Assembly (NCBI RefSeq): GCF_011057715.1
Contig: NZ_LNGH01000004.1
Coordinates: 1-42,877 of the forward strand
Source of the DNA: Marinitoga sp. 38H-ov
GTDB taxonomy: Bacteria; Thermotogota; Thermotogae; Petrotogales; Petrotogaceae
Reading direction: 5' to 3'
DNA: 42,877 bases
The notes beneath the pieces were generated by a model. It was not told the DNA's origin. It ran no database searches and was given only the letters and a program-made list of their open reading frames with translations. Positions 23,886 to 42,877 of the stretch are shown here, piece by piece; positions within the stretch are counted from its first letter, which is position 1; every line of letters starts with the position of its first letter. A program made the position numbers and the translations under genes.

Positions 23886-23929
23886 ATTATTATAATAATG
23901 TAACTAAATTTTATATGAGGGGTATTGAA

Positions 23930-24913
23930 ATGAAAAAGATTTTGTTAATTTCATTGATGTTATTGGCATTAGTTATTTCATTTTCAGAATTGATTATTTA
24001 TAGTAGTGTTGATGAAGCAAACGCAAGAAAAATTTTAAATGCTTTTTCAAAAGAAACAGGTATTCAAGTAAAATACGTTTTCTTATCTTCTGGACCAGCT
24101 TTAGCTAGATTAGAAGCTGAAAAAGGCAACCCTCAAGCAGATGTATGGTTTGGAGCTCCTATGCCAAATCATATTATAGCAAAAAAAAATGGTTTAACTG
24201 AGTCATATAAAACAACTAGTGTATATGGTATTTCTCCTAATTTCTATGATATAGATGGTTTTTATCATGCTTTCTATATGAATCCATTAGGTGTAGGTGT
24301 TAACTTAAAAGTTTTAGAACAACTTAAAGTTGATATGCCAAAAAGTTGGATGGATTTATTAAAACCAGAATATAAAAATATGATTCAATATCCAAGCCCA
24401 CAAACTTCAGGTACTGCATATGCATTTATGATAGGATTATTAAATATATATGGCGAAGATGGAGCTTTTGATTACTTAAAAAAATTAGCTAAAAATGTAC
24501 AAGCATATACACAAAGTGGTACAGGACCATCAAAAGCAGTTGGGCCTGGTCAAGCTGGAATAGGTATTCAATTTACTCCTGCATTTTTCCAATTTAAAGA
24601 ACAAGGATATCCTGTAGAAGTAGTATTTCCTGTAGAAGGCGTTCCATACGAATCAGCATGTGTTTCTATTGTAAAAGGTGCAAAGAACAAATATGAAGCA
24701 AAAGTATTAGTTGATTGGTTATTATCTAAAAAAGGACAACAAGTAATTGTTGATGAAAAGACATTCTTCTATCCAGTAAGATCAGATGTTGATTTTGGGA
24801 CATTACAACCATTATCAACAATTAAATTAATTACTGTTGATGAAAATTGGGCAGCTCAAAATAAAAAGAGATTAGTTGATAGATGGATAAAAGAAGTTTT
24901 ACCAGTTAAATAA
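23930..24913 (+). CDS. ABC importer periplasmic binding protein (family 1, FbpA/AfuA-like)
   Basis: A 327-residue exported binding protein. The signal peptide (about 1-20) is followed by 'ELIIYSSVDEANARKILNAF', the start typical of the FbpA/AfuA/PhnS group. 'AEKGNPQADVWFGA' and 'PSPQTSGTAYAFM' are family motifs. 'TQSGTGPSKAVGPGQ' is rich in Gly/Ser/Thr, as expected for binding an oxyanion or phosphate ester. The paired tyrosines that hold iron in FbpA are not evident, so a phosphorylated compound or phosphonate is as likely as Fe(III). The in-frame ATG at 23915 is less likely, because GAGGGG lies directly before ATG 23930. A hairpin follows the stop, consistent with higher expression of this gene than of the permease. 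Confidence 0.88.
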   Translation: MKKILLISLMLLALVISFSELIIYSSVDEANARKILNAFSKETGIQVKYVFLSSGPALARLEAEKGNPQADVWFGAPMPNHIIAKKNGLTESYKTTSVYGISPNFYDIDGFYHAFYMNPLGVGVNLKVLEQLKVDMPKSWMDLLKPEYKNMIQYPSPQTSGTAYAFMIGLLNIYGEDGAFDYLKKLAKNVQAYTQSGTGPSKAVGPGQAGIGIQFTPAFFQFKEQGYPVEVVFPVEGVPYESACVSIVKGAKNKYEAKVLVDWLLSKKGQQVIVDEKTFFYPVRSDVDFGTLQPLSTIKLITVDENWAAQNKKRLVDRWIKEVLPVK

Positions 24914-24917
24914 TAGG

Positions 24918-24941
24918 AAGGGGGATTATCCCCCTTTTTTT
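24918..24941 (+). terminator. Intercistronic terminator-like hairpin after the first binding protein
   Basis: AAGGGGG (24918-24924) pairs with CCCCCTT (24930-24936), followed by seven T residues, six bases after the binding-protein stop. The permease start is only 12 bases further on. Partial termination or RNA stabilisation would raise binding-protein output relative to the permease and ATPase. Confidence 0.85.
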
Positions 24942-24953
24942 GGAGGAATAAAA

Positions 24954-26645
24954 ATGGAGATATCAAATAAAGAATTTTCTAATAAATTTAAAAAATTATT
25001 GAAAACCCCATCCTTATTAATACTCCTCATATTAATATTTATTTCCTTATTTATATTTATTATTTTTCCATTATACAAAGTATTTTTAATTAGTTTTACA
25101 AATTCAGAGAATAAATTTTCTTTAGATGTCTATAAGGAAATATTGTCAAATGATTATATGAAACAAGGATTCAAAAATAGTATTTTAATAGCTACATTAA
25201 CAGCTGTTATAGGTACTTTTGTAGGCTTTTTATACGCATATACATTAAATAGAGCAAATATACCATTTAAAAGTTTTTTTAGAACAATTGCAATAATTCC
25301 AATGGTTTTCCCTCCGTTTATAGGTGCTATGTCTATAATAATGTTATTTGGATTTAATGGTCTTCTTACAGCAAAATTATTTGGTATAAGAAGTTTTCCT
25401 ATATATGGACTATGGGGATTAATGATCGCTCAAGTAATAACTTTTTTCCCAGTAGCTTTTATTACTTTAGATGGAGTAATATCAACAATATCTCCAACGC
25501 TTGAAGATGCTGCTTTTAATTTAAAAGCTTCAAGGTGGCAGGTGTTTACAAAAATTATACTGCCATTATCTGTACCGGGTATTGCTAGCACAATGTTAGT
25601 TTTATTTATTGAATCTCTAGCAGATTTTGGTAATCCATTGATTTTAGCAGGCTCTAGATTTCCAGTTTTATCTGTACAAGCATACTTGCAAATAACAGGT
25701 ATGTTTAATTTAAAAAGTGGTGCAGCTTTAGCTGTTTGGTTATTATTACCTTCATTGATAGCTTTTATTATTCAAAAATATTGGATTGGAAAGAAAAAAT
25801 ATATTACCATTACTGGTAAGCCTAATACATCTCAATTGAAAAGCGTTAATAAATTTGCAAAATGGTTTTTATTTTCTTTGGTATTAATAATTTCCCTATT
25901 TATATTATTAATATATGTAATTATATTCTGGGGAGCATTTACCAAACTATGGGGAATGAATAATGAATTTACATTAGAAAACTTTAAATATGTTTTTGAT
26001 GTTGGAAAAGAAGCTATAAAAGATACATTGACAATTGCATTAACATCAACTCCAGCATCTGCAGTTTTAGGTATGATTATAGCATTTTTAATTGTAAGAA
26101 AGACTTTTCCTGGTAAAAAAACACTTGAATTTGTATCGTTGTTAAATTTTTCTGTTCCTGGAACTGTAGTAGGTATAGGATATATTTTAGCATTTAATGA
26201 AAAGCCCTTGTTATTAACAGGAACTTTTGCAATATTGGTATTAAATTTTATTTTTAGATATATACCTGTAGGTATTCAAAGTGGAATAGCATTACTAAAT
26301 CAAATTGACCCTGCCATTGAAGAAGCGGCATATACATTAGGCGCTGATGATAAGACTGTATTTAGTAAAATTACTTTACCATTAATAGTTCCGGCCTTTT
26401 TTTCTGCTTTAGTATATTCTTTTGTTAGAGCTATGACGGCTATTAGTGCTGCTATATTCTTAGTATCTGCTAATTGGAATTTAATGACAGTACAGATTTT
26501 AAGTCAGACAGATTCAGGGAGATTATCAGAAGCATGTGCCTTTTCTGTTGTTTTAATAATATTAATATTAGCTTTTGTATTTATTTTAAAAATATTCTTG
26601 AAAAATAAAATATCTTTAGTAAATAATAATTACGATTCTGAATAG
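24954..26645 (+). CDS. ABC importer permease, fused double (FbpB-like)
   Basis: A 563-residue membrane protein of two tandem permease halves with about 12 helices. Each half has a cytoplasmic EAA loop contacting the ATPase: 'TLEDAAFNLKASRWQVF' and 'AIEEAAYTLGADDKTVF', both followed by 'LPL.VP'. This fused arrangement is typical of the ferric-type (FbpB/AfuB/CysTW-related) permeases. TGGAGGAAT precedes the ATG. It works with the binding protein upstream and the ATPase two bases to twelve bases downstream, depending on the ATPase start. Confidence 0.92.
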   Translation: MEISNKEFSNKFKKLLKTPSLLILLILIFISLFIFIIFPLYKVFLISFTNSENKFSLDVYKEILSNDYMKQGFKNSILIATLTAVIGTFVGFLYAYTLNRANIPFKSFFRTIAIIPMVFPPFIGAMSIIMLFGFNGLLTAKLFGIRSFPIYGLWGLMIAQVITFFPVAFITLDGVISTISPTLEDAAFNLKASRWQVFTKIILPLSVPGIASTMLVLFIESLADFGNPLILAGSRFPVLSVQAYLQITGMFNLKSGAALAVWLLLPSLIAFIIQKYWIGKKKYITITGKPNTSQLKSVNKFAKWFLFSLVLIISLFILLIYVIIFWGAFTKLWGMNNEFTLENFKYVFDVGKEAIKDTLTIALTSTPASAVLGMIIAFLIVRKTFPGKKTLEFVSLLNFSVPGTVVGIGYILAFNEKPLLLTGTFAILVLNFIFRYIPVGIQSGIALLNQIDPAIEEAAYTLGADDKTVFSKITLPLIVPAFFSALVYSFVRAMTAISAAIFLVSANWNLMTVQILSQTDSGRLSEACAFSVVLIILILAFVFILKIFLKNKISLVNNNYDSE

Positions 26646-26659
26646 GAATGGTGGTTTGT

Positions 26660-27733
26660 ATGAGTTTGCAACTAAAAAATATATATAAAATTTTTAAAAG
26701 TGAAAACACAGATACAGTAGCGGTAAAAGATTTTTCTTTAAATATTGAAAAAGGTAAATTAGTTACATTTTTAGGCCCTTCGGGTTGTGGGAAAACTACA
26801 ACGCTTAGAATGATAGCAGGATTTGAAACTCCAACAAATGGACAAATATTATTGGAAGGAAAAGATATTACTAATGATCCTCCTAATAAACGTGATATAT
26901 CTATGATGTTTCAAAGTTATGCATTATTTCCACATATGACTATTAAGGAAAATATAGAATTTGGATTGAAATTGAAAAAAATACCAAAAAATTTTATTGA
27001 AGAAAAGGTAAGAAAAATAATTAGTTTAACTGGATTAGAAGGAATGGAAAATAGAAGGCCAGATCAAATTTCTGGTGGGCAGCAACAAAGAGTTGCTTTA
27101 GCAAGAAGTTTGGTAATGGAACCTAAAGTGTTATTATTTGATGAACCTTTATCTAATTTAGATGCAAAATTGAGAGAATCTATGAGAACAGAAATTAGAA
27201 GAATTCAAAAAGAGTTAAATATAACAAGTGTTTATGTAACCCATGATCAAATAGAAGCAATGAGTATTTCAGATATTATTGTAGTAATGAATAAAGGTGA
27301 AATAATGCAAGTAGGAACACCATTTGAAATATATGCAAAACCACAGAATAAGTTTGTAGCAGATTTTATTGGTAGAGTTAATTTTATTGAAGGAAAAGTT
27401 GTAGAAATAAATGAAGAGAATATTACTATTTTTAATGAAGAACTAAATAGTAAATTTTATGGAAAAAGCAATATGGATATGAAATTGAATGATGAAGTTT
27501 TACTTGTAGTTAGGCCAGAATCTCTTGGATATAATGAAAAGAAAAATTGCATTTCTGGGATTATTGAAAAAACAGCATTTTTAGGATCTCATGTTGAATA
27601 TGAAGTGAGGTTAAATAATAATTATCTAATTAATGGAGTTATGTATAATCCTATAGAAAATAGAATACCTAATCAAGGTGAAAACATTAAATTGTATTTT
27701 AGTGAAAAAGCTTCTTGGATTATTAAAAAATAA
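26660..27733 (+). CDS. ABC importer ATPase (FbpC/PotA-like)
   Basis: A 357-residue nucleotide-binding subunit. Walker A is 'GPSGCGKTT' (39-47), the signature is 'SGGQQQRVALARS' (138-150), Walker B is 'VLLFDEPL' (157-164), and the switch His is in 'VYVTHDQIEA'. The C-terminal 110 residues form a TOBE-like regulatory extension, as in the MalK/PotA/FbpC group. An in-frame ATG at 26648 exists, but GGTGG lies five bases before ATG 26660, which I take as the start. Confidence 0.92.
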   Translation: MSLQLKNIYKIFKSENTDTVAVKDFSLNIEKGKLVTFLGPSGCGKTTTLRMIAGFETPTNGQILLEGKDITNDPPNKRDISMMFQSYALFPHMTIKENIEFGLKLKKIPKNFIEEKVRKIISLTGLEGMENRRPDQISGGQQQRVALARSLVMEPKVLLFDEPLSNLDAKLRESMRTEIRRIQKELNITSVYVTHDQIEAMSISDIIVVMNKGEIMQVGTPFEIYAKPQNKFVADFIGRVNFIEGKVVEINEENITIFNEELNSKFYGKSNMDMKLNDEVLLVVRPESLGYNEKKNCISGIIEKTAFLGSHVEYEVRLNNNYLINGVMYNPIENRIPNQGENIKLYFSEKASWIIKK

Positions 27734-27761
27734 GTTCATTTTATATTATGGGGGTGTAAGT

Positions 27762-28754
27762 ATGAAAAAGTTGGCATTTTTAGTAACATTGTTGTTGATA
27801 GGTATTTTTGCATTTTCAGCAGGTGAGGTTGTAAAGGCATATACAACATTAGAAGAACCACTTGCAAAAGAATTATTTGATAGATTTGAACAAGAAACAG
27901 GAATTAAAGTAGAATGGGTAAGATTATCAACAGGTGAAACAGTTGCTAGATTAGAAGCAGAAAGAGAAAATCCACAAGCTTCTATTTGGGTTGGAGGCGT
28001 TGGTTTAGGTCATGTTGAAGCAAAACAAAAAGGATTAACAACTCCATATAAATCACCTTTAGCAGCAAATACTCCTGCACAATTTAGAGATCCAGAAAAC
28101 TATTGGATTGGATTATATGTTGGCGTTTTAGCATTTGCAACAAATGAAGATAGAGCAAAAGAATTAGGTTTAGAAGCACCAAAAGGTTGGTTTGATATTA
28201 TTGATTCAAAATATGCAGGTTTAGTAAGAGTTGCAAATCCAAATACTTCAGGTACTGCATATAATGTTATCACAACAGTTCTTCACATGTTCCATGAAGA
28301 TGAAGAATTAACATTTACGTTCTTACATCAATTAGATGAAAGTATAGACCAATATACTAAATCAGGTTCTGCTGGTGGGAAACAAGCTGCTATAGGAGAA
28401 ATTCCTTTTGCTATAGGGTACGCACATGATATGTTCAAATTAATTGCAAATGGAGCACCTTTGAAAGTTACAGTTCCCATGGAAGGTACAGGATATGAAT
28501 TAGCCTCAATGTCATTAGTAAAAAATGGTCCAAATCCTGTTAATGCAAAAAAATTATACAATTGGATGTTACAAAGAGAAGCTCAAGAAATGATTTCAAA
28601 ATGGTTTGTATTACCTGTGTCAAAAATTGCTCCTAAAGATAAAGCACCATTAAATATTGAAGAATTAAGAATAGTTAATCAAGATTTCGTTTGGGATGCA
28701 GCTAATAGAGAAAGATTAGTTGAAAGATGGAATAAAGAAATAGGTGCAAGATAA
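27762..28754 (+). CDS. Second ABC importer periplasmic binding protein (paralogue)
   Basis: A 330-residue exported binding protein, clearly paralogous to the one at 23930. It has a signal peptide ('MKKLAFLVTLLLIGIFAFSA'), 'RLEAERENPQASIWVGGV', 'NPNTSGTAYNVIT', 'TKSGSAGGKQAAIGE' and a shared ending 'NRERLVERWNKEI'. Differences in the Gly/Ser-rich loop ('SGSAGG' versus 'SGTGPS') suggest a related but distinct ligand. GGGGGTG precedes ATG 27762; an upstream in-frame start lies within the ATPase gene and is unlikely. It opens the second importer set. A hairpin follows directly, as after the first binding protein. Confidence 0.88.
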   Translation: MKKLAFLVTLLLIGIFAFSAGEVVKAYTTLEEPLAKELFDRFEQETGIKVEWVRLSTGETVARLEAERENPQASIWVGGVGLGHVEAKQKGLTTPYKSPLAANTPAQFRDPENYWIGLYVGVLAFATNEDRAKELGLEAPKGWFDIIDSKYAGLVRVANPNTSGTAYNVITTVLHMFHEDEELTFTFLHQLDESIDQYTKSGSAGGKQAAIGEIPFAIGYAHDMFKLIANGAPLKVTVPMEGTGYELASMSLVKNGPNPVNAKKLYNWMLQREAQEMISKWFVLPVSKIAPKDKAPLNIEELRIVNQDFVWDAANRERLVERWNKEIGAR

Positions 28755-28760
28755 TTTTTT

Positions 28761-28780
28761 AGGCGGCTTTTAGCCGCCTT
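28761..28780 (+). terminator. Intercistronic hairpin after the second binding protein
   Basis: AGGCGGCT (28761-28768) pairs perfectly with AGCCGCCT (28772-28779) around a three-base loop. The following T tract is short, so it is a weak terminator or an RNA-stabilising stem between the binding protein and the permease. Confidence 0.65.
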
Positions 28781-28804
28781 AAATTAGAAACGGGAGTTGA
28801 AAAA

Positions 28805-31003
28805 ATGTTTACAAAAAAGAAAGTTATATATTTTTTTATATTATTATTATTAGTTTCTGTATTAGATTTTTGGATTTTTTCAAATATTAAAACTTCATAT
28901 AATGAAGTTTTAAATGAAAACCTTTTGAAGACAAGTCAGATAATTTCTAGATCTATTCCTAAAAGTAATTTTGATTATAATAAATGGATTAAAAAATATG
29001 AAAAAGAAAATGAAAATCTAAAAATAATATATATTAATGGACTTCCAGGTTTTTTTGAAACAACAGATTATTTTAATGAAGAAAATATATATAATTTTTT
29101 TAATAATAATCTAAAATCAAAAGATTTTCAAAAAGGTATTGAAAGTGCAGTATATAGTGAATTCTATTTTTCAAAAAGTGATTATATTATAAATAATTCT
29201 AAATATAGAATTATTTTTGCTCCTATATTAAGTGATGAATATGATGTTTTAGGTGTAGGGGTACTTTTCTTTAAAATGGATAAATATATGGAATTTTATA
29301 GAATAGTAAATATTTTTATGTATGCAGTAATAATAATATTTATATTACTATATGGAATTATAAACTTCTCTAGAGATCCAGTAATGAACTTTATAATTTT
29401 AGGTATTTTTGTAATAGTAGCTATTTTTACTGCTTATCCATTATTTGAAGCAGTAAGATTAACTTTTATAAAAAATGGAGAATTTTCATTGGATATATGG
29501 AAAAAAATATTAACAACTAAACAATATTTAAATGCATTTTGGGGAAGTATTAAACTAGGAATTTCAACCGCAACATTATCAACTTTAGTAGGATTTTTAT
29601 TTGCATTTGTTTTAGCAAGAACTGGAATCAAAGGAAAAAAAATTTTTAGTACCATGGCAACATTACCAGTTATTTCTCCTCCATTTTCATTAACTTTATC
29701 TATATTATTACTTTTTGGGAATAATGGTTTAATAACAAAAAAAATACTTGGACTAGAAAATTTTAGTATATATGGGTTGGGTGGTTTAACATTAGTACAA
29801 ACTATAGGGATGTTTCCAATAGCTTATTTAACTATGGTTGGTGTATTACATTCAATTGACTCCACTCTTGAGGATGCGTCTTTAGATTTAAATGCATCAA
29901 AATTAGAGACATTTTTAAAAGTAACATTACCTTTATCTATGCCAGGGATTTTAAGTGCATGGTTATTAGTATTTACTAATTCATTAGCAGACTTTGCTAA
30001 TCCATTGATATTGTCTGGGAATTACAGAGTGTTATCAGTTGAAGCTTATCTTGAAGTTACTGGAATGAATAGATTAGGTAATGGTGCGGCACTATCAATA
30101 TTATTATTATTGCCTACAATCACTGCTTTTTTAGTACAAAGATTTTGGGTTTCAAAAAAATCATTTGTGACAGTTACAGGAAAACCTTCTCCAAGAATTA
30201 CGGAATTAGTTTCTAAACCAGTTAAAACAATATTGGTTTCTTTAATAGTTTTGATTATTATATTTTTAATTTCATTATATGGAACAATTGTAGCTGGATG
30301 TTTTGTAAGAAATTGGGGTATTGATTATACATTTACTTTAGAAAATATAACTGAAGCACTTCAAAGAGGTAAAGATGCAATAATGGATACTGTAACATTA
30401 GCATCTGCAGCTACTCCTATTGCTGGAATATTAGCTATGATGACAGCATTAATATTGGTTAGAAAGAAATTTAGCGGGAAAAGATTATTTGAAATATTAA
30501 TAATGGCACCATTTGCAATACCAGGTACTTTAATAGGTATTAGTTATATTTTAGCTTTTAATAAAGCTCCATTAATTTTAGTAGGTACGGGGGCTATTAT
30601 TGTAATAAACTATATTATTAGAGAATTACCAGTTGGTGTTGAAGGAGGGGTTGCAGCTTTAAGACAAATAGATCCTTCCATAGAAGAAGCAGCACAAGAT
30701 TTAGGTGCTGATGCTCCAACGGTATTTAAAACTATTGTATTACCTTTATTAAGACCAGCTTTTATATCTAGTTTATCCTATACTTTTGTTAGATCAATGA
30801 CTGCTGTTAGTGCTGTTATTTTCCTTATATCAGCAAAATGGTATCATATAACAGTTTTAATATATAATTTCTCTGAAAATTTAAGATTTGGCTTAGCAAG
30901 TGTATTAGCTACTACTTTAATAATAATTGTGTTAGCTGCTTTTGGATTAATGAGATTATTAGTTAAAGAAAGTGAAACATTAGAAAAATCAGTTTCTCAA
31001 TGA
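28805..31003 (+). CDS. ABC importer permease with N-terminal extracytoplasmic sensor-like domain
   Basis: A 732-residue membrane protein. Residues about 194-732 are a fused double permease with EAA loops 'TLEDASLDLNASKLETF' and 'SIEEAAQDLGADAPTVF', like the one at 24954. Unlike it, about 190 residues are added in front: TM about 7-26, an extracytoplasmic segment about 27-165, and TM about 166-187. The segment ends 'YRIIFAPILSDEYDVLGVGV', which resembles the end of a cache/CHASE-like sensor domain of chemoreceptors and kinases. Such a domain on a permease is unusual. It could dock the binding protein, or sense ligand and gate the transporter. The start has GGGAGTTG ahead of it. The stop overlaps an in-frame ATG of the ATPase gene. 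Confidence 0.88.
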   Translation: MFTKKKVIYFFILLLLVSVLDFWIFSNIKTSYNEVLNENLLKTSQIISRSIPKSNFDYNKWIKKYEKENENLKIIYINGLPGFFETTDYFNEENIYNFFNNNLKSKDFQKGIESAVYSEFYFSKSDYIINNSKYRIIFAPILSDEYDVLGVGVLFFKMDKYMEFYRIVNIFMYAVIIIFILLYGIINFSRDPVMNFIILGIFVIVAIFTAYPLFEAVRLTFIKNGEFSLDIWKKILTTKQYLNAFWGSIKLGISTATLSTLVGFLFAFVLARTGIKGKKIFSTMATLPVISPPFSLTLSILLLFGNNGLITKKILGLENFSIYGLGGLTLVQTIGMFPIAYLTMVGVLHSIDSTLEDASLDLNASKLETFLKVTLPLSMPGILSAWLLVFTNSLADFANPLILSGNYRVLSVEAYLEVTGMNRLGNGAALSILLLLPTITAFLVQRFWVSKKSFVTVTGKPSPRITELVSKPVKTILVSLIVLIIIFLISLYGTIVAGCFVRNWGIDYTFTLENITEALQRGKDAIMDTVTLASAATPIAGILAMMTALILVRKKFSGKRLFEILIMAPFAIPGTLIGISYILAFNKAPLILVGTGAIIVINYIIRELPVGVEGGVAALRQIDPSIEEAAQDLGADAPTVFKTIVLPLLRPAFISSLSYTFVRSMTAVSAVIFLISAKWYHITVLIYNFSENLRFGLASVLATTLIIIVLAAFGLMRLLVKESETLEKSVSQ

Positions 31004-31014
31004 GAGGTGGAATT

Positions 31015-32112
31015 ATGACAAAAAAACAAGTATCTTTAAGATTAGAAAATGTTACTAAGATATTTTATGACAAAAAATATAATACAGAAGTAATTGCAGT
31101 AAATAATTCTAATTTTGAAATAAAGCCAGGAGAATTAATTACATTATTAGGTCCATCAGGATGTGGAAAAACTACAACTTTAAGAATGGTAGCAGGATTT
31201 GAATTACCAACTAAAGGTAAAATATATATTGGAAATGATGATATAACTTATCTTCCTCCTAACAAAAGAGATACAGCAACTGTTTTTCAAAGTTATGGAC
31301 TATTTCCACATATGACGGTGTTTGATAATGTGGCCTATGGATTGAAATTAAGAAAAATATCTAAAGAAGAAATAGGAAAAAAAGTCTTAAACACTTTAGA
31401 AATGGTAGGGTTGAAAGATTTAGCAAATAGAGCTCCTTCAAGGTTGTCTGGGGGACAGCAACAAAGAGTTGCATTAGCTAGATCTATAATAGTAGAACCA
31501 TCAATATTATTGCTAGATGAACCATTATCTAATTTGGATGCATTATTGAGAGAGCAAATGAGAATAGAAATAAGAAGAATTCAAAAATCTTTAGGTATAA
31601 CTGCCATTTATGTTACTCATGATAGGGTTGAAGCAATGAGTTTATCAGATAGAATAATAGTTATGAAAGATGGGAAAATTGTTCAAATAGGCACCCCTAA
31701 CGATATTTATGAAAATCCTAATTCAAAATTTGTAGCTGGTTTTGTTGGGAAAGTTGCATTTTTTGATGTCGAGGTTAAAGATATTTTGGAAGATAAATGT
31801 ATAGCTGTTTTTAGAGGTAAAATATTAGAAATACCTAAATTTGAATCAAATATAGAAATAGGAAAAGGAAATGTTTTAATGGCAAGACCGGAATCATTGG
31901 TATTAAAAGATTCTAAAGAAGGATTAATAAATGGAAGAGTTAAAATAAATGTATATTTAGGAAATTCAGTAGAATCATTTATTGAAACTGAATTTGGTGA
32001 AATAATGGTTCAAATAGATAATCCTAGTTTAAAAAAAGTTTTTGATGAAGGTCAAGAAGTATCAATTGATATTGTTCCGGAATTATGCAAGATTTTAAAA
32101 AACGAGGAATAA
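31015..32112 (+). CDS. Second ABC importer ATPase
   Basis: A 365-residue ATPase paralogous to the one at 26660. Walker A is 'GPSGCGKTT' (46-54), the signature 'LSGGQQQRVALARS', Walker B 'ILLLDEPLSNLD', and the switch histidine lies in 'IYVTHDRVEAM'. A TOBE-like C-terminal extension is present. ATG 31000 overlaps the permease stop (ATGA) and would add five residues. AGAGGTGG before ATG 31015 makes the latter the better start. It ends the 9-kb importer operon, followed by a clear terminator. Confidence 0.92.
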   Translation: MTKKQVSLRLENVTKIFYDKKYNTEVIAVNNSNFEIKPGELITLLGPSGCGKTTTLRMVAGFELPTKGKIYIGNDDITYLPPNKRDTATVFQSYGLFPHMTVFDNVAYGLKLRKISKEEIGKKVLNTLEMVGLKDLANRAPSRLSGGQQQRVALARSIIVEPSILLLDEPLSNLDALLREQMRIEIRRIQKSLGITAIYVTHDRVEAMSLSDRIIVMKDGKIVQIGTPNDIYENPNSKFVAGFVGKVAFFDVEVKDILEDKCIAVFRGKILEIPKFESNIEIGKGNVLMARPESLVLKDSKEGLINGRVKINVYLGNSVESFIETEFGEIMVQIDNPSLKKVFDEGQEVSIDIVPELCKILKNEE

Positions 32113-39867: not shown

Positions 39868-41469
39868 TTATACACTCAAAAATTTTTCAATAATAGAATC
39901 AAAAAGTTCTCGTTCATTATCTTCAAAAGAGTAATATCCTAAAGCGACGCGTTTATAACCAAGACCGTATTTAATTGCAAAATTTTTGATTTTGCCTTTA
40001 GGATAAGGAGTAATAGGCCATTTAATATCATAACGAACACAATTTCTCAAAAACACATCAAATATCCTCATTTCCTCATCACTGAGCTCAAAATAATGAA
40101 GAATAAATTCCTTAAAATTCCTCACATTTTTAAAAAGCTCAGTGATGAGTTTTTTTCTTGATACGAAAAATGGAGATACATCAGATTTTATCTCTTCAAA
40201 ATCATCAGGATTCATTATCCTTTTCTCAATTTCTTTAACCTCAAATTCAGAAAGCATTAAGTTAAAAAAATACATCTTCTCATAATCCCTTGAAAAGTAT
40301 TTAATGATTTTATCTTTATCTCCTTCAAAAATCAATCTTAAAATACGACTCTTTGTAAAATATGGTTTTTCTATTAATGCTGTATATGTTGAGAAAAATA
40401 ATTTAGGAATTTTATTTCTTGCAATTGTTTTGAATTTTGCTATATTATTGTTGAAATTATTTTTAAGATGAATCTTATAAATTTCATTATTTATAGCAAA
40501 AGGATAATTAGAATTAAATGAAAGATTATAATCATCAATAATCTTTTTTAATTCAGAGGATTTTTTTGATGAATGATAACATTCTTTTTGAATTTTTTTT
40601 GATATAAAATCATTCAAATTTTTTGTTAATTCGTAAGTTTTTATATTATCAATAAAAATAAATTTGTTGAATTTATTACCAATCTTAAAATCAGGATATT
40701 TATTATGTAATTTATAAATATTGTCAGTTATATCAAAAATTCCTATATTATTGTTCATAAAATAAATCTCAAAAATAGTATCAAATTGATTATACATTTT
40801 TTGTAAATCTTCAAAATAATAACCAAGATAATATTCTAACAAATTCGCTATATATAATGATTTCTTTTTATCAATATTTTTTACCCACCACGCAGCATTA
40901 TTTAATCCAGAACACATCATTGTAGGATGAGAAAATTCTTTAGCTAAAATATATCCTTCAATAGCTTTCTTATATGCTTCATCATATTTCTTTTCATCTC
41001 TAAACTTCCTTGCTTCAGAATATTTCAATAATGACATCTGAACATAACTTTTATTATATTTATTGCTGCATATATTTATATCACCTAAATCATCATTATA
41101 AATGGAAATTAAATGTTTTAAACCTGGAAGAATTAAATTTCTAGCATACTCTGGAATAAGAGAAAAATTTTTTTTCAAATAAAAGTACTCTTTTTTAGCG
41201 TAATCTCTTTTATCTAGAATAATAAGAATTTTTATCTTTTCGAATCTTGTAAGTTCTTTTAGTATTGTTGTTGTTGTTGTTGAAATAATAATATTTGCAT
41301 ATTTAAGAGCAAGATTATGTTTATTTTTCCATTTAGCTTTTAATAATTCAATATATAAATTTAAATGACTTTTTTTATCTAAAATTCCCATAATATAATT
41401 AAGGATAGGAAGAGAATATTTACCGTATTCAACAATACTAATAATTTTTTTTAAAGAAATTGCATCCAT
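39868..41469 (-). CDS. TPR-like protein of unknown function
   Basis: A 533-residue, almost entirely helical protein without signal peptide or membrane segment. Residues about 147-215 read as tetratricopeptide-like pairs ('KYSEARKFRDEKKYDEAYKK', 'EGYILAKEFSHPTM', 'GLNNAAWW'). The N-terminal region (about 30-110) has similar helix pairs. A short run of five threonines near residue 65 is encoded by a triplet repeat. The C-terminal end 'IKNFAIKYGLGYKRVALGYY' could be a helix-turn-helix, but this is weak. AAGGTGAT precedes the ATG. It diverges from two very short peptide genes across a gene-poor region. The combination recalls peptide-sensing TPR regulators (RRNPP type: Rap, PlcR, NprR), although those have an N-terminal HTH or none. 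Function is inference only. Confidence 0.65.
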   Translation of the reverse strand: MDAISLKKIISIVEYGKYSLPILNYIMGILDKKSHLNLYIELLKAKWKNKHNLALKYANIIISTTTTTILKELTRFEKIKILIILDKRDYAKKEYFYLKKNFSLIPEYARNLILPGLKHLISIYNDDLGDINICSNKYNKSYVQMSLLKYSEARKFRDEKKYDEAYKKAIEGYILAKEFSHPTMMCSGLNNAAWWVKNIDKKKSLYIANLLEYYLGYYFEDLQKMYNQFDTIFEIYFMNNNIGIFDITDNIYKLHNKYPDFKIGNKFNKFIFIDNIKTYELTKNLNDFISKKIQKECYHSSKKSSELKKIIDDYNLSFNSNYPFAINNEIYKIHLKNNFNNNIAKFKTIARNKIPKLFFSTYTALIEKPYFTKSRILRLIFEGDKDKIIKYFSRDYEKMYFFNLMLSEFEVKEIEKRIMNPDDFEEIKSDVSPFFVSRKKLITELFKNVRNFKEFILHYFELSDEEMRIFDVFLRNCVRYDIKWPITPYPKGKIKNFAIKYGLGYKRVALGYYSFEDNERELFDSIIEKFLSV

Positions 41470-41763
41470 TTTTAATCACCTTGTATGATTTTATTAACAT
41501 AAACGTTTCACAAGAATCCAAAATGAATTAAAACTAAAAATCAAGGAAAAATCCAAAATGAAAAAACATGAAAAATTTTTTGAATTTATTAATATAAGAG
41601 AAATACAAAAAATATTACATAACTGTAAAAGAAAACGAATTAATTAAAAATTAAAAAAAACTCGGTTTCTAAAGTATTGATAAATAGCGGATTTTTATTT
41701 TAGATTTTGTTTAATAAAACCACAAAATTTCATTGCTAAAATAAAAATTGTGGAGGTGAAAAA

Positions 41764-41895
41764 GTGAAAAAAATCATATTGTTAATATTGATAATGTTTT
41801 TGTTTTCTATAATTATTTTTAGTGACGAAAATAATGACGATATTTACTCCACTGATTCTATAAACCCTAAAATTCAATCTGAATTTTCTGAATAA
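41764..41895 (+). CDS. 43-residue exported peptide precursor
   Basis: A short gene with a strong GGAGGTG seven bases before a GTG start. It encodes a lysine-led hydrophobic signal segment ('MKKIILLILIMFLFSIIIFS', about 1-20) followed by an acidic, polar tail of 23 residues ('DENNDDIYSTDSINPKIQSE' plus FSE). This is the form of secreted pro-peptides such as Phr precursors, and it diverges from the TPR-like gene 295 bases away. It is too short for domain assignment. The good ribosome-binding site and the clean signal pattern argue that it is translated. A possible promoter (TTGATA at 41677, TAGATT at 41701) lies upstream. Confidence 0.55.
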   Translation: MKKIILLILIMFLFSIIIFSDENNDDIYSTDSINPKIQSEFSE

Positions 41896-42025
41896 TTAAA
41901 AAATAACTCATGAATGGCATATCAAAAAAGATATTATATTCAATTATTCTGGGGATATAGTTAAATTATAGCACATGAATTTTTATAAAATTATAAGTTC
42001 TATAAACTAAAATTTCAAATTATTT

Positions 42026-42162
42026 TATAGTATCTTCGAAACCAGATTCCAATTAAATTAATATTTAACTAAAATAGTTGTATACCAGGAAGATAAAGGC
42101 TTTTTTCAGAATGAGTAAACATTTGATAAACAAATGCTTTTGGAATTTCGAAAGATACTATA
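42026..42162. repeat. Long imperfect inverted repeat upstream of the 32-residue peptide gene
   Basis: TATAGTATCTTCGAAA (42026-42041) is complementary to TTTCGAAAGATACTATA (42146-42162) with a single one-base gap. Inside it is a smaller hairpin CATTTG-ATAAA-CAAATG (42120-42136) followed by CTTTT. The region could fold as a structured leader or be a binding site; it ends 28 bases before the peptide start. Confidence 0.6.
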
Positions 42163-42190
42163 ACAATTGAAATAGAGAGGAGGTGTATAT

Positions 42191-42289
42191 ATGTTAAAAG
42201 GTTTTTATTCCGTAAATAAAAGTAGCACGCCGTTATTGCTATGTTCTTTTTGTCAAAGTGCAATAGTTGTTTGTGGTGTTGTATGGTAA
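42191..42289 (+). CDS. 32-residue hydrophobic Cys-rich peptide
   Basis: An ATG with a near-ideal GAGGAGGTG nine bases upstream opens a 32-codon gene. The peptide is polar at first ('MLKGFYSVNKSSTP') and then hydrophobic with three cysteines, 18, 21 and 28, in 'LLLCSFCQSAIVVCGVVW', ending in Trp. CxxC plus a third Cys, and a leader-core-like division, suggest a modified or signalling peptide. No modification enzyme or exporter is visible in the window. Short Cys-rich peptides of this size have been described in Thermotoga. An 11-base stem (42331-42341 with 42368-42378) follows. Confidence 0.5.
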   Translation: MLKGFYSVNKSSTPLLLCSFCQSAIVVCGVVW

Positions 42290-42330
42290 TAAAAATTATA
42301 ACAAATTTTTGTGTTTGATAAAAGACAAAT

Positions 42331-42378
42331 GAAGCACTTTCTAATATTTATATAAGATGATTTTTATGAAGGTGCTTC
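42331..42378 (+). terminator. Hairpin after the Cys-rich peptide gene
   Basis: GAAGCACTTTC (42331-42341) pairs with GAAGGTGCTTC (42368-42378) over 11 bases with one G-T pair and a 26-base loop. There is no T tract after it, so it may stabilise the peptide mRNA or be a repeat end rather than a classic terminator. Confidence 0.4.
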
Positions 42379-42444
42379 TATGGTGTTGATAAATAAGTAT
42401 TTTATAGAATTCTTTAAAAACTAAAAATATTATAAATAATATTA

Positions 42445-42549
42445 AAGTCTCCGGTATTAAGTCAAGAGGAAAATAAAAAAACAATAAAAATTAATAAAGA
42501 ATTAAAATAGAGAGTATTTAGAATAAAAAAGAGTAAAACAAATATTATG
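42445..42549 (+). repeat. Inverted copy of the left window edge, with a 65-bp insertion
   Basis: 42445-42468 is identical to the reverse complement of 17-40, and 42529-42549 to that of 1-21. The two right-hand pieces are separated by 65 extra bases ending in the same AAGAG word. In frame, the right copy reads 'LKSPVLSQEENKKTIKINK' and then ELK before a stop, so it is the tail of a gene related to the one at 14-493. The match on the left reaches the window edge and may continue. Confidence 0.8.
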
Positions 42550-42608
42550 CACAGAGTGCAAAAATTGAATTATTAAACTGTTTAGTTAGCTATTATTGAT
42601 ATTATCTT

Positions 42609-42877
42609 TTACTCATCATCCTTCAAAAACACTACGTTTTTAGAAGGAAGAGATAATTCAATAGGATTATATGATGTATTAAGCATATAGTAAATACTTC
42701 TAACTAGTTTTCTGGCAGTCAAAACAACAGCAGCTTTGTGAGATTTACCTTGATCTCTTTTCTTTTTGTAATAAGATTTAAGAACAGGATCATATCTAAT
42801 AGCATAAGAAGCTGCTTGATATAGATAGTATCTATTTATTACCTTTTTTGGATAAATTTTTGTGATTATCAGTTTTT
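42609..42877 (-). mobile_element. IS110-family transposase, 3' end, frameshifted
   Basis: The minus strand encodes the C-terminal part of an IS110/IS116/IS902-type transposase (DEDD RuvC-like recombinase): 'LSKKGNK' at the window edge, then 'RYYLYQAASYAIRYDPVLKS' and 'KSHKAAVVLTARKLVRSIYY', ending 'FLKDDE' at 42609. The glycine-serine region resembles the family's 'SKRGNxxLR' core. Between GNK and RYYLYQ the frame changes: 'YL' is missing, consistent with a five-base deletion, so this copy is probably dead. The element continues beyond the window. Confidence 0.8.

Follow-up and report, generated by a model that had tools for sequence, protein, structure and literature searches.

A divergent TPR protein-peptide gene pair in Marinitoga suggests a hitherto undescribed family of peptide-based signalling systems between bacterial cells

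Introduction

Cytoplasmic peptide quorum sensing has so far been surveyed in the Bacillota and their phages. In the RRNPPA systems (Rap, NprR, PlcR, PrgX, AimR) a TPR receptor is encoded next to a secreted propeptide, and HTH-bearing and HTH-less receptors both occur (PMC9765709, PMC12700828); loss of the HTH founded the Rap subfamily (PMC12700828). Rgg/SHP quorum sensing, in turn, controls RaS-RiPP operons in streptococci (reviewed in PMC13361665; for tryglysin see PMC8092268). A survey of peptide-sensing systems looked at Firmicutes and viruses only and required a length of 250-500 aa of a strict receptor (PMC10075063); given this taxon scope and length limit, it was unable to find the family that we describe below. 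Within the open-licence literature, Thermotogota are not mentioned in PMC9765709, PMC10075063 or PMC12700828, and an earlier report elsewhere is possible.

Here we analyse a locus of Marinitoga sp. 38H-ov, a thermophilic marine member of the Thermotogota, in which the gene for a TPR-like protein diverges from two genes for very short peptides. Another small-peptide locus of this phylum, Thermotoga maritima TM1316, was reportedly described as novel and as induced in stationary phase by Frock et al. in 2013, and is said to include radical-SAM and transporter genes. The first-pass annotation of the Marinitoga locus proposed one of the two peptides, after processing, as what the TPR protein senses. 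In our judgement the locus is probably one copy of an RRNPP/Rgg-SHP-like peptide-signalling module that occurs throughout the Thermotogota and switches RiPP operons.

Results

The window, i.e. the whole stretch of DNA that was analysed, is the entire 42,877-nt contig NZ_LNGH01000004.1 (hereafter C4), which ends within a transposase fragment. The features of interest are the following:

39868..41469, minus strand: gene for the TPR-like receptor candidate, 533 aa, with a degenerate HTH remnant (open reading frame and ribosome-binding site)
41266..41283 (ends approximate), minus strand: in-frame (ACA)n triplet repeat encoding a poly-Thr tract, five Thr in the window protein (sequence)
41678..41701, plus strand: element B, TGATAAATAGCGGATTTTTATTTT, upstream of the 43-mer gene (exact pattern match)
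41752..41759, plus strand: ribosome-binding site GGAGGTGA of the 43-mer gene
41764..41895, plus strand: candidate pheromone precursor, 43 aa, GTG start (pairing and dN/dS)
42191..42289, plus strand: 32-aa Cys peptide, probable RiPP precursor, core CSFCQSAIVVCGVVW (homologue MLKGYYFINSKIEPVVECSFCQSAIVVCGVIW in locus L072)
42609..42875, minus strand: C-terminal part of the transposase of an insertion sequence, running off the contig end (repeated element)

The TPR gene and the 43-codon gene diverge, 294 nt apart, and the 32-codon gene comes next on the plus strand. The ribosome-binding site (RBS) of the TPR gene is AAGGTGAT (the complement of 41475-41482), and that of the 32-codon gene, GGAGGTG, stands directly before 42191. 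Inspection of open reading frames (ORFs) in 41470-42608 found no other plausible genes; the three ORFs of the first-pass annotation, with their lengths, coordinates and good RBSs, and the gene-free remainder of the region were all confirmed. Elsewhere in the window, at 23915-32112, the ORF translations, read by eye, suggest two tandem iron(III)-type ABC transporter gene sets (binding protein, fused permease and ATPase).

If the TPR protein senses a locally encoded peptide, short signal-peptide ORFs should also lie beside its homologues in related genomes, and this is what we found. Using a profile built from the paralogues of Marinitoga sp. 38H-ov, we detected the family in 58 of 103 Thermotogota genomes; the strain itself carries six TPR genes of the family and one fragment. 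A signal-peptide ORF adjoins every one of the six paralogues (6/6): a search with the 43-mer located relatives divergent from the TPR genes on contigs C32, C48 and C14, and at the two TPR loci of C27, which were read by eye, a signal-peptide ORF is convergent at one and divergent at the other. Across the phylum, a divergent signal-peptide ORF lies within 450 nt of 48 of the 77 family members that have room for one, compared with 0 of 481 control genes; for controls with a free upstream region the count is 0/177. An ORF was accepted if it had 28-80 codons, lay 60-450 nt divergently upstream and possessed an RBS and a strong signal-peptide profile; the sample consisted of about 80 fetched regions, the other genes of which served as controls. 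The Fisher p value of about 2e-49 is nominal, since thresholds were set after the first candidate list and near-identical copies were counted separately. A relaxed test gave 51/78, and by these criteria no peptide ORF was found in 27-29 of about 78 members. As the phylum-wide partner of the TPR gene, the 43-mer is our candidate signal.

The 43-mer has a KK n-region, a hydrophobic core and a hydrophilic tail that ends in NPKIQSEFSE, with a likely signal-peptidase site near IIFS/DEN. Its dN/dS of 0.10 against two Marinitoga orthologues (10 synonymous and 6 non-synonymous changes) indicates that the precursor is under purifying selection; in the alignment with the orthologue at L063 all amino-acid differences fall in the tail, after the hydrophobic core. 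Could such a peptide instead be a small membrane-active toxin, with the TPR protein as its regulator or antidote in a toxin-antitoxin-like module? Its size and hydrophobic N-terminus would suit a toxin, as would the divergent pairing, which is known in such modules, and the occurrence of the genes in multiple copies near insertion sequences. The conserved hydrophilic tail, the phylum-wide retention and the promoter in common with RiPP genes (see below) nevertheless fit signalling better, and the 43-mer obtains only weak matches in Pfam and NCBIfam, to signal or lipoprotein starts; we regard a toxin as very improbable.

An apparent covariation between the tail of the putative pheromone precursor and the receptor C-terminus (QVQIE tails with the PKVDGNLKSF variant) was not supported: the best sliding-window Mantel correlation was r=0.23 with p=0.12, which is not significant. 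The signal peptide and linker correlate strongly with the N-half of the receptor, as is expected from physical linkage. Four SBP_bac_5 genes, i.e. genes for OppA-type binding proteins, are present in the genome of the strain.

The description of the receptor candidate as 'TPR-like' stands with moderate strength. No Pfam TPR model matched the window protein alone; TPR_12 is weakly matched in the N-terminal half of 8 of 26 family members (best E 1.4e-4, under the curated Pfam cut-off). Structure prediction, a check that the first-pass annotation had proposed, succeeded for part of the chain: an AlphaFold model of residues 1-275 consists of helix pairs throughout (mean pLDDT 71.6), while the full-length model is poor (pLDDT 51.6) and a fold search with it was given no weight. 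The best structural neighbours of the 1-275 model are mostly generic TPR proteins, none at E <= 0.001, and Rap structures appear among these generic matches, all at E > 0.02. NCBIfam and PHROGs gave no family above noise for the window protein. Among the Pfam matches listed none is to an RRNPP-specific family, and a profile search of PDB sequences matched no RRNPP receptor. Relatives of the TPR protein were not found in viral contigs, plasmids or phages. A narrow-alignment scan of named genomes had Marinitoga lauensis as its sole match; the M. lauensis copies of the TPR gene are frameshifted.

A central Cro-type HTH is present in 66 of the 85 full-length family members, about half-way along the chain; HTH_26 scores over its cut-off in L135 and HTH_3 at its cut-off in L077, both centrally placed. 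The window protein has no intact HTH and carries a degenerate remnant at the corresponding place. In the family tree it belongs to an HTH-less Marinitoga clade of 18 rows (SH-aLRT 99); one more HTH-less row falls outside this clade (L099, 16 bits) and may be a threshold effect. The tree is rooted at its midpoint, which bears on whether the HTH was lost or gained; loss on the branch to the Marinitoga clade appears to be the simpler direction, and is favoured by the remnant in the window protein.

Two further observations concern these receptors. In the HTH-less Marinitoga receptors (L015, L061, L070 and others) a run of 4-10 Thr is encoded by an in-frame triplet repeat, either (ACA)n or (ACT)n; since L015 and L061 are identical in the tree alignment despite having 8 and 7 Thr, respectively, the length of the tract may change quickly. 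The paralogues of the strain also have a mosaic look, with N-half/C-half identities to the window protein of 42/81% on C32, 48/77% on C48 and 49/62% on C14, which suggests recombination between copies.

Upstream of the peptide genes we found, phylum-wide, the promoter signature TTGAMARYCATAT-N9-TANNAT: in Marinitoga as well as in distantly related families of its class, these regions share aCTTGAAARTCATATg followed by a -10 box at fixed spacing. Seven Marinitoga genomes contain 36 matches to the signature and none to a reversed control pattern, and a phylum scan gave 77 matches with 0 for the control. Among the fetched loci, 43 of 51 matches fall within 500 nt upstream of a TPR gene, on its divergent side, where local shuffles expect 0.1, and 31 of 32 signature-bearing genomes possess the TPR family (p=4e-9, kinship ignored). 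Because the signature was derived from peptide-gene upstream regions, its presence there is partly by construction; what is not built in is that it is rare elsewhere and also occurs in genomes and loci outside the derivation set. Matches away from the listed TPR genes precede radical-SAM maturases (L159, L160, L066), ABC and MFS transporters (L157, L162, L172, L097, L122) and further peptide genes. One match in the genome of the strain (C27:30776-30803) stands before the gene for a subtilisin-family (S8) secreted protease (L016 9037-10746, minus strand), near a TPR-peptide pair; this protease could take part in precursor processing.

An intact signature was not found at the window copy or its orthologues L063 and L064, and these three retain element B (L064 with three mismatches). 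Compared by hand, matches to element B with at most two mismatches lie nearly all beside TPR loci; the element occurs near HTH-less TPR loci of Marinitoga.

A signature common to the peptide gene and RiPP operons would also be expected if the TPR protein regulates RiPP operons and the secreted peptide is not its ligand but a co-regulated immunity, leader or envelope-stress peptide. Co-regulation alone would explain the linkage, and the non-significant tail-receptor covariation is in keeping with it. Against this, the divergent TPR-peptide pair occurs phylum-wide, including at loci where no radical-SAM-like ORF was detected (L089, L124, L077), and a short hydrophilic tail behind a cleavable-looking signal peptide is the layout of a pheromone precursor. 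We consider a merely co-regulated peptide unlikely, and continue to read the 43-mer as the candidate signal.

Another Marinitoga (L072, genome G043) encodes a homologue of the 32-mer in which the CSFCQSAIVVCGV core is unchanged, and dN/dS over the core is 0.11. The gene order in L072 is TPR gene, divergent 43-mer-type gene, 32-mer, radical-SAM/SPASM enzyme with a PqqD-like domain and ABC exporter. A precursor next to a radical-SAM/SPASM maturase and an exporter, the arrangement of a RiPP cluster, is therefore present in the orthologous locus, and the window ends before such genes. Because its homologue is followed by this maturase and exporter, the 32-mer most likely serves as the precursor of a RiPP, which would make it a product of the locus and not its signal. 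The equal treatment of the two peptides in the first-pass annotation has accordingly been abandoned: one pairs with TPR genes phylum-wide, and the homologue of the other precedes a maturase and an exporter.

Other loci of the family have entirely different Cys-rich precursors and maturases, and since these differ from locus to locus, what stays constant is the receptor-peptide pair, while the RiPP varies. This variation bears on the reading in which the 32-mer is itself the signal, a pheromone that the radical-SAM enzyme modifies and that the TPR protein senses in its mature form as a RiPP. The precursor does lie in the same divergent cluster, its core is conserved and some RiPPs serve as signals; with precursors wholly different between loci and the 43-mer-type peptide as the constant partner, however, this is the reading to which we give the least credence. 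In favour of a module that switches RiPP operons, SPASM genes are enriched near TPR genes (3/9 in G039, p=0.004; 4/6 in G043, p=2e-4). The maturases beside TPR genes match TIGR04463, NF038107 (CefB), TIGR04334 and TIGR04068 (CcpM) with E of about 1e-32 to 1e-108, under the curated cut-offs, and are thus relatives and not members of these families; the L072 maturase is nearer to PqqE-type models.

A matching maturase and exporter are located on another contig of the strain, C39, which is colinear with L072 (77% DNA identity over 3 kb). The C39 maturase is frameshifted, possibly through assembly error, and the exporter frame is open. Both the end of C4 and the start of C39 lie in an insertion sequence that recurs at many contig ends. 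Given the orthology with L072, C4 and C39 are likely joined through this element, by which the locus appears to have been split. The apparent split together with the frameshifted maturase implies that the RiPP is probably not made in this strain. The transposase fragment (42609..42875) has no Pfam match and looks IS110-like by eye. At the C14 locus the SPASM/radical-SAM gene (L015 3943-5170, minus strand) is also broken into several frames, which marks this locus, judged by its reading frames, as a second decayed RiPP cluster in the genome.

Discussion

In gene order the Thermotogota loci resemble Rgg/SHP groups I and II, where the regulator gene diverges from a short pheromone-precursor gene, and they likewise have an adjoining operon of RiPP precursor, radical-SAM enzyme and transporter. 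Opp-mediated re-import, as in Rgg/SHP systems, is proposed here too. The differences are that these loci are found in Thermotogota and not in Bacillota, that the HTH is mid-chain (and lost in the window clade) whereas it is N-terminal in Rgg, and that the precursors have a Sec-type signal peptide, unlike SHPs, which leave the cell through PptAB. At the sequence level, no Rgg family was significantly matched.

The family is similar to RRNPPA systems in having a TPR receptor with an adjacent short propeptide gene of predicted export, and in the occurrence of HTH-bearing and HTH-less versions. RRNPPA receptors are described as having an N-terminal HTH (in Rap, an N-terminal helical bundle) and five or nine TPRs; in contrast, the Thermotogota members are about 450-630 aa long, and the HTH, where present, is central. 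Since a defining feature is thus lacking and the searches gave no clear match to known RRNPPA receptors, we do not file the family under RRNPPA, although its working would be RRNPP-like. It could be a deep branch of RRNPPA that lies beyond the Bacillota, or the same logic could have been invented independently.

The sequences support the components and their linkage; by analogy with these systems, we infer the following mechanism, from export to DNA contact and direction of regulation. The signal peptide of the 43-aa precursor would direct its export via Sec, and trimming would yield a short peptide from the hydrophilic tail. An oligopeptide permease would re-import this peptide, and the TPR protein encoded divergently from it would bind it in its groove. 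HTH-bearing members would then act at the signature before the peptide gene, as feedback, and at the signature before operons for RiPP maturases and exporters. As the window protein has no HTH, it may act in a Rap-like manner via a partner, either an HTH-bearing paralogue, such as the one on C27, or another regulator. The 32-aa Cys peptide would be the regulated output, modified by the radical-SAM/SPASM enzyme and exported. The mechanism is least certain for the window copy, which has neither an intact HTH nor an intact signature.

More specifically, the chances seem to us about even that the Thermotogota possess a peptide quorum-sensing family of their own, defined by an HTH between two helical halves, a secreted propeptide, the signature and RiPP control, with HTH loss in Marinitoga and a poly-Thr tract whose variable length may tune the receptor.

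If true, the same gene logic with another receptor architecture in an outer-membraned thermophile phylum would widen the range of such communication. It bears on whether RRNPP-type sensing is older than the Bacillota or has more than one origin. One peptide, one receptor and one signature would also offer a genetic handle on unexplored thermophile RiPPs, and synthetic peptides would allow a direct test of signalling in Thermotogota. The TPR-peptide pair thus suggests that bacteria possess a further, so far undescribed family of peptide signalling between cells.
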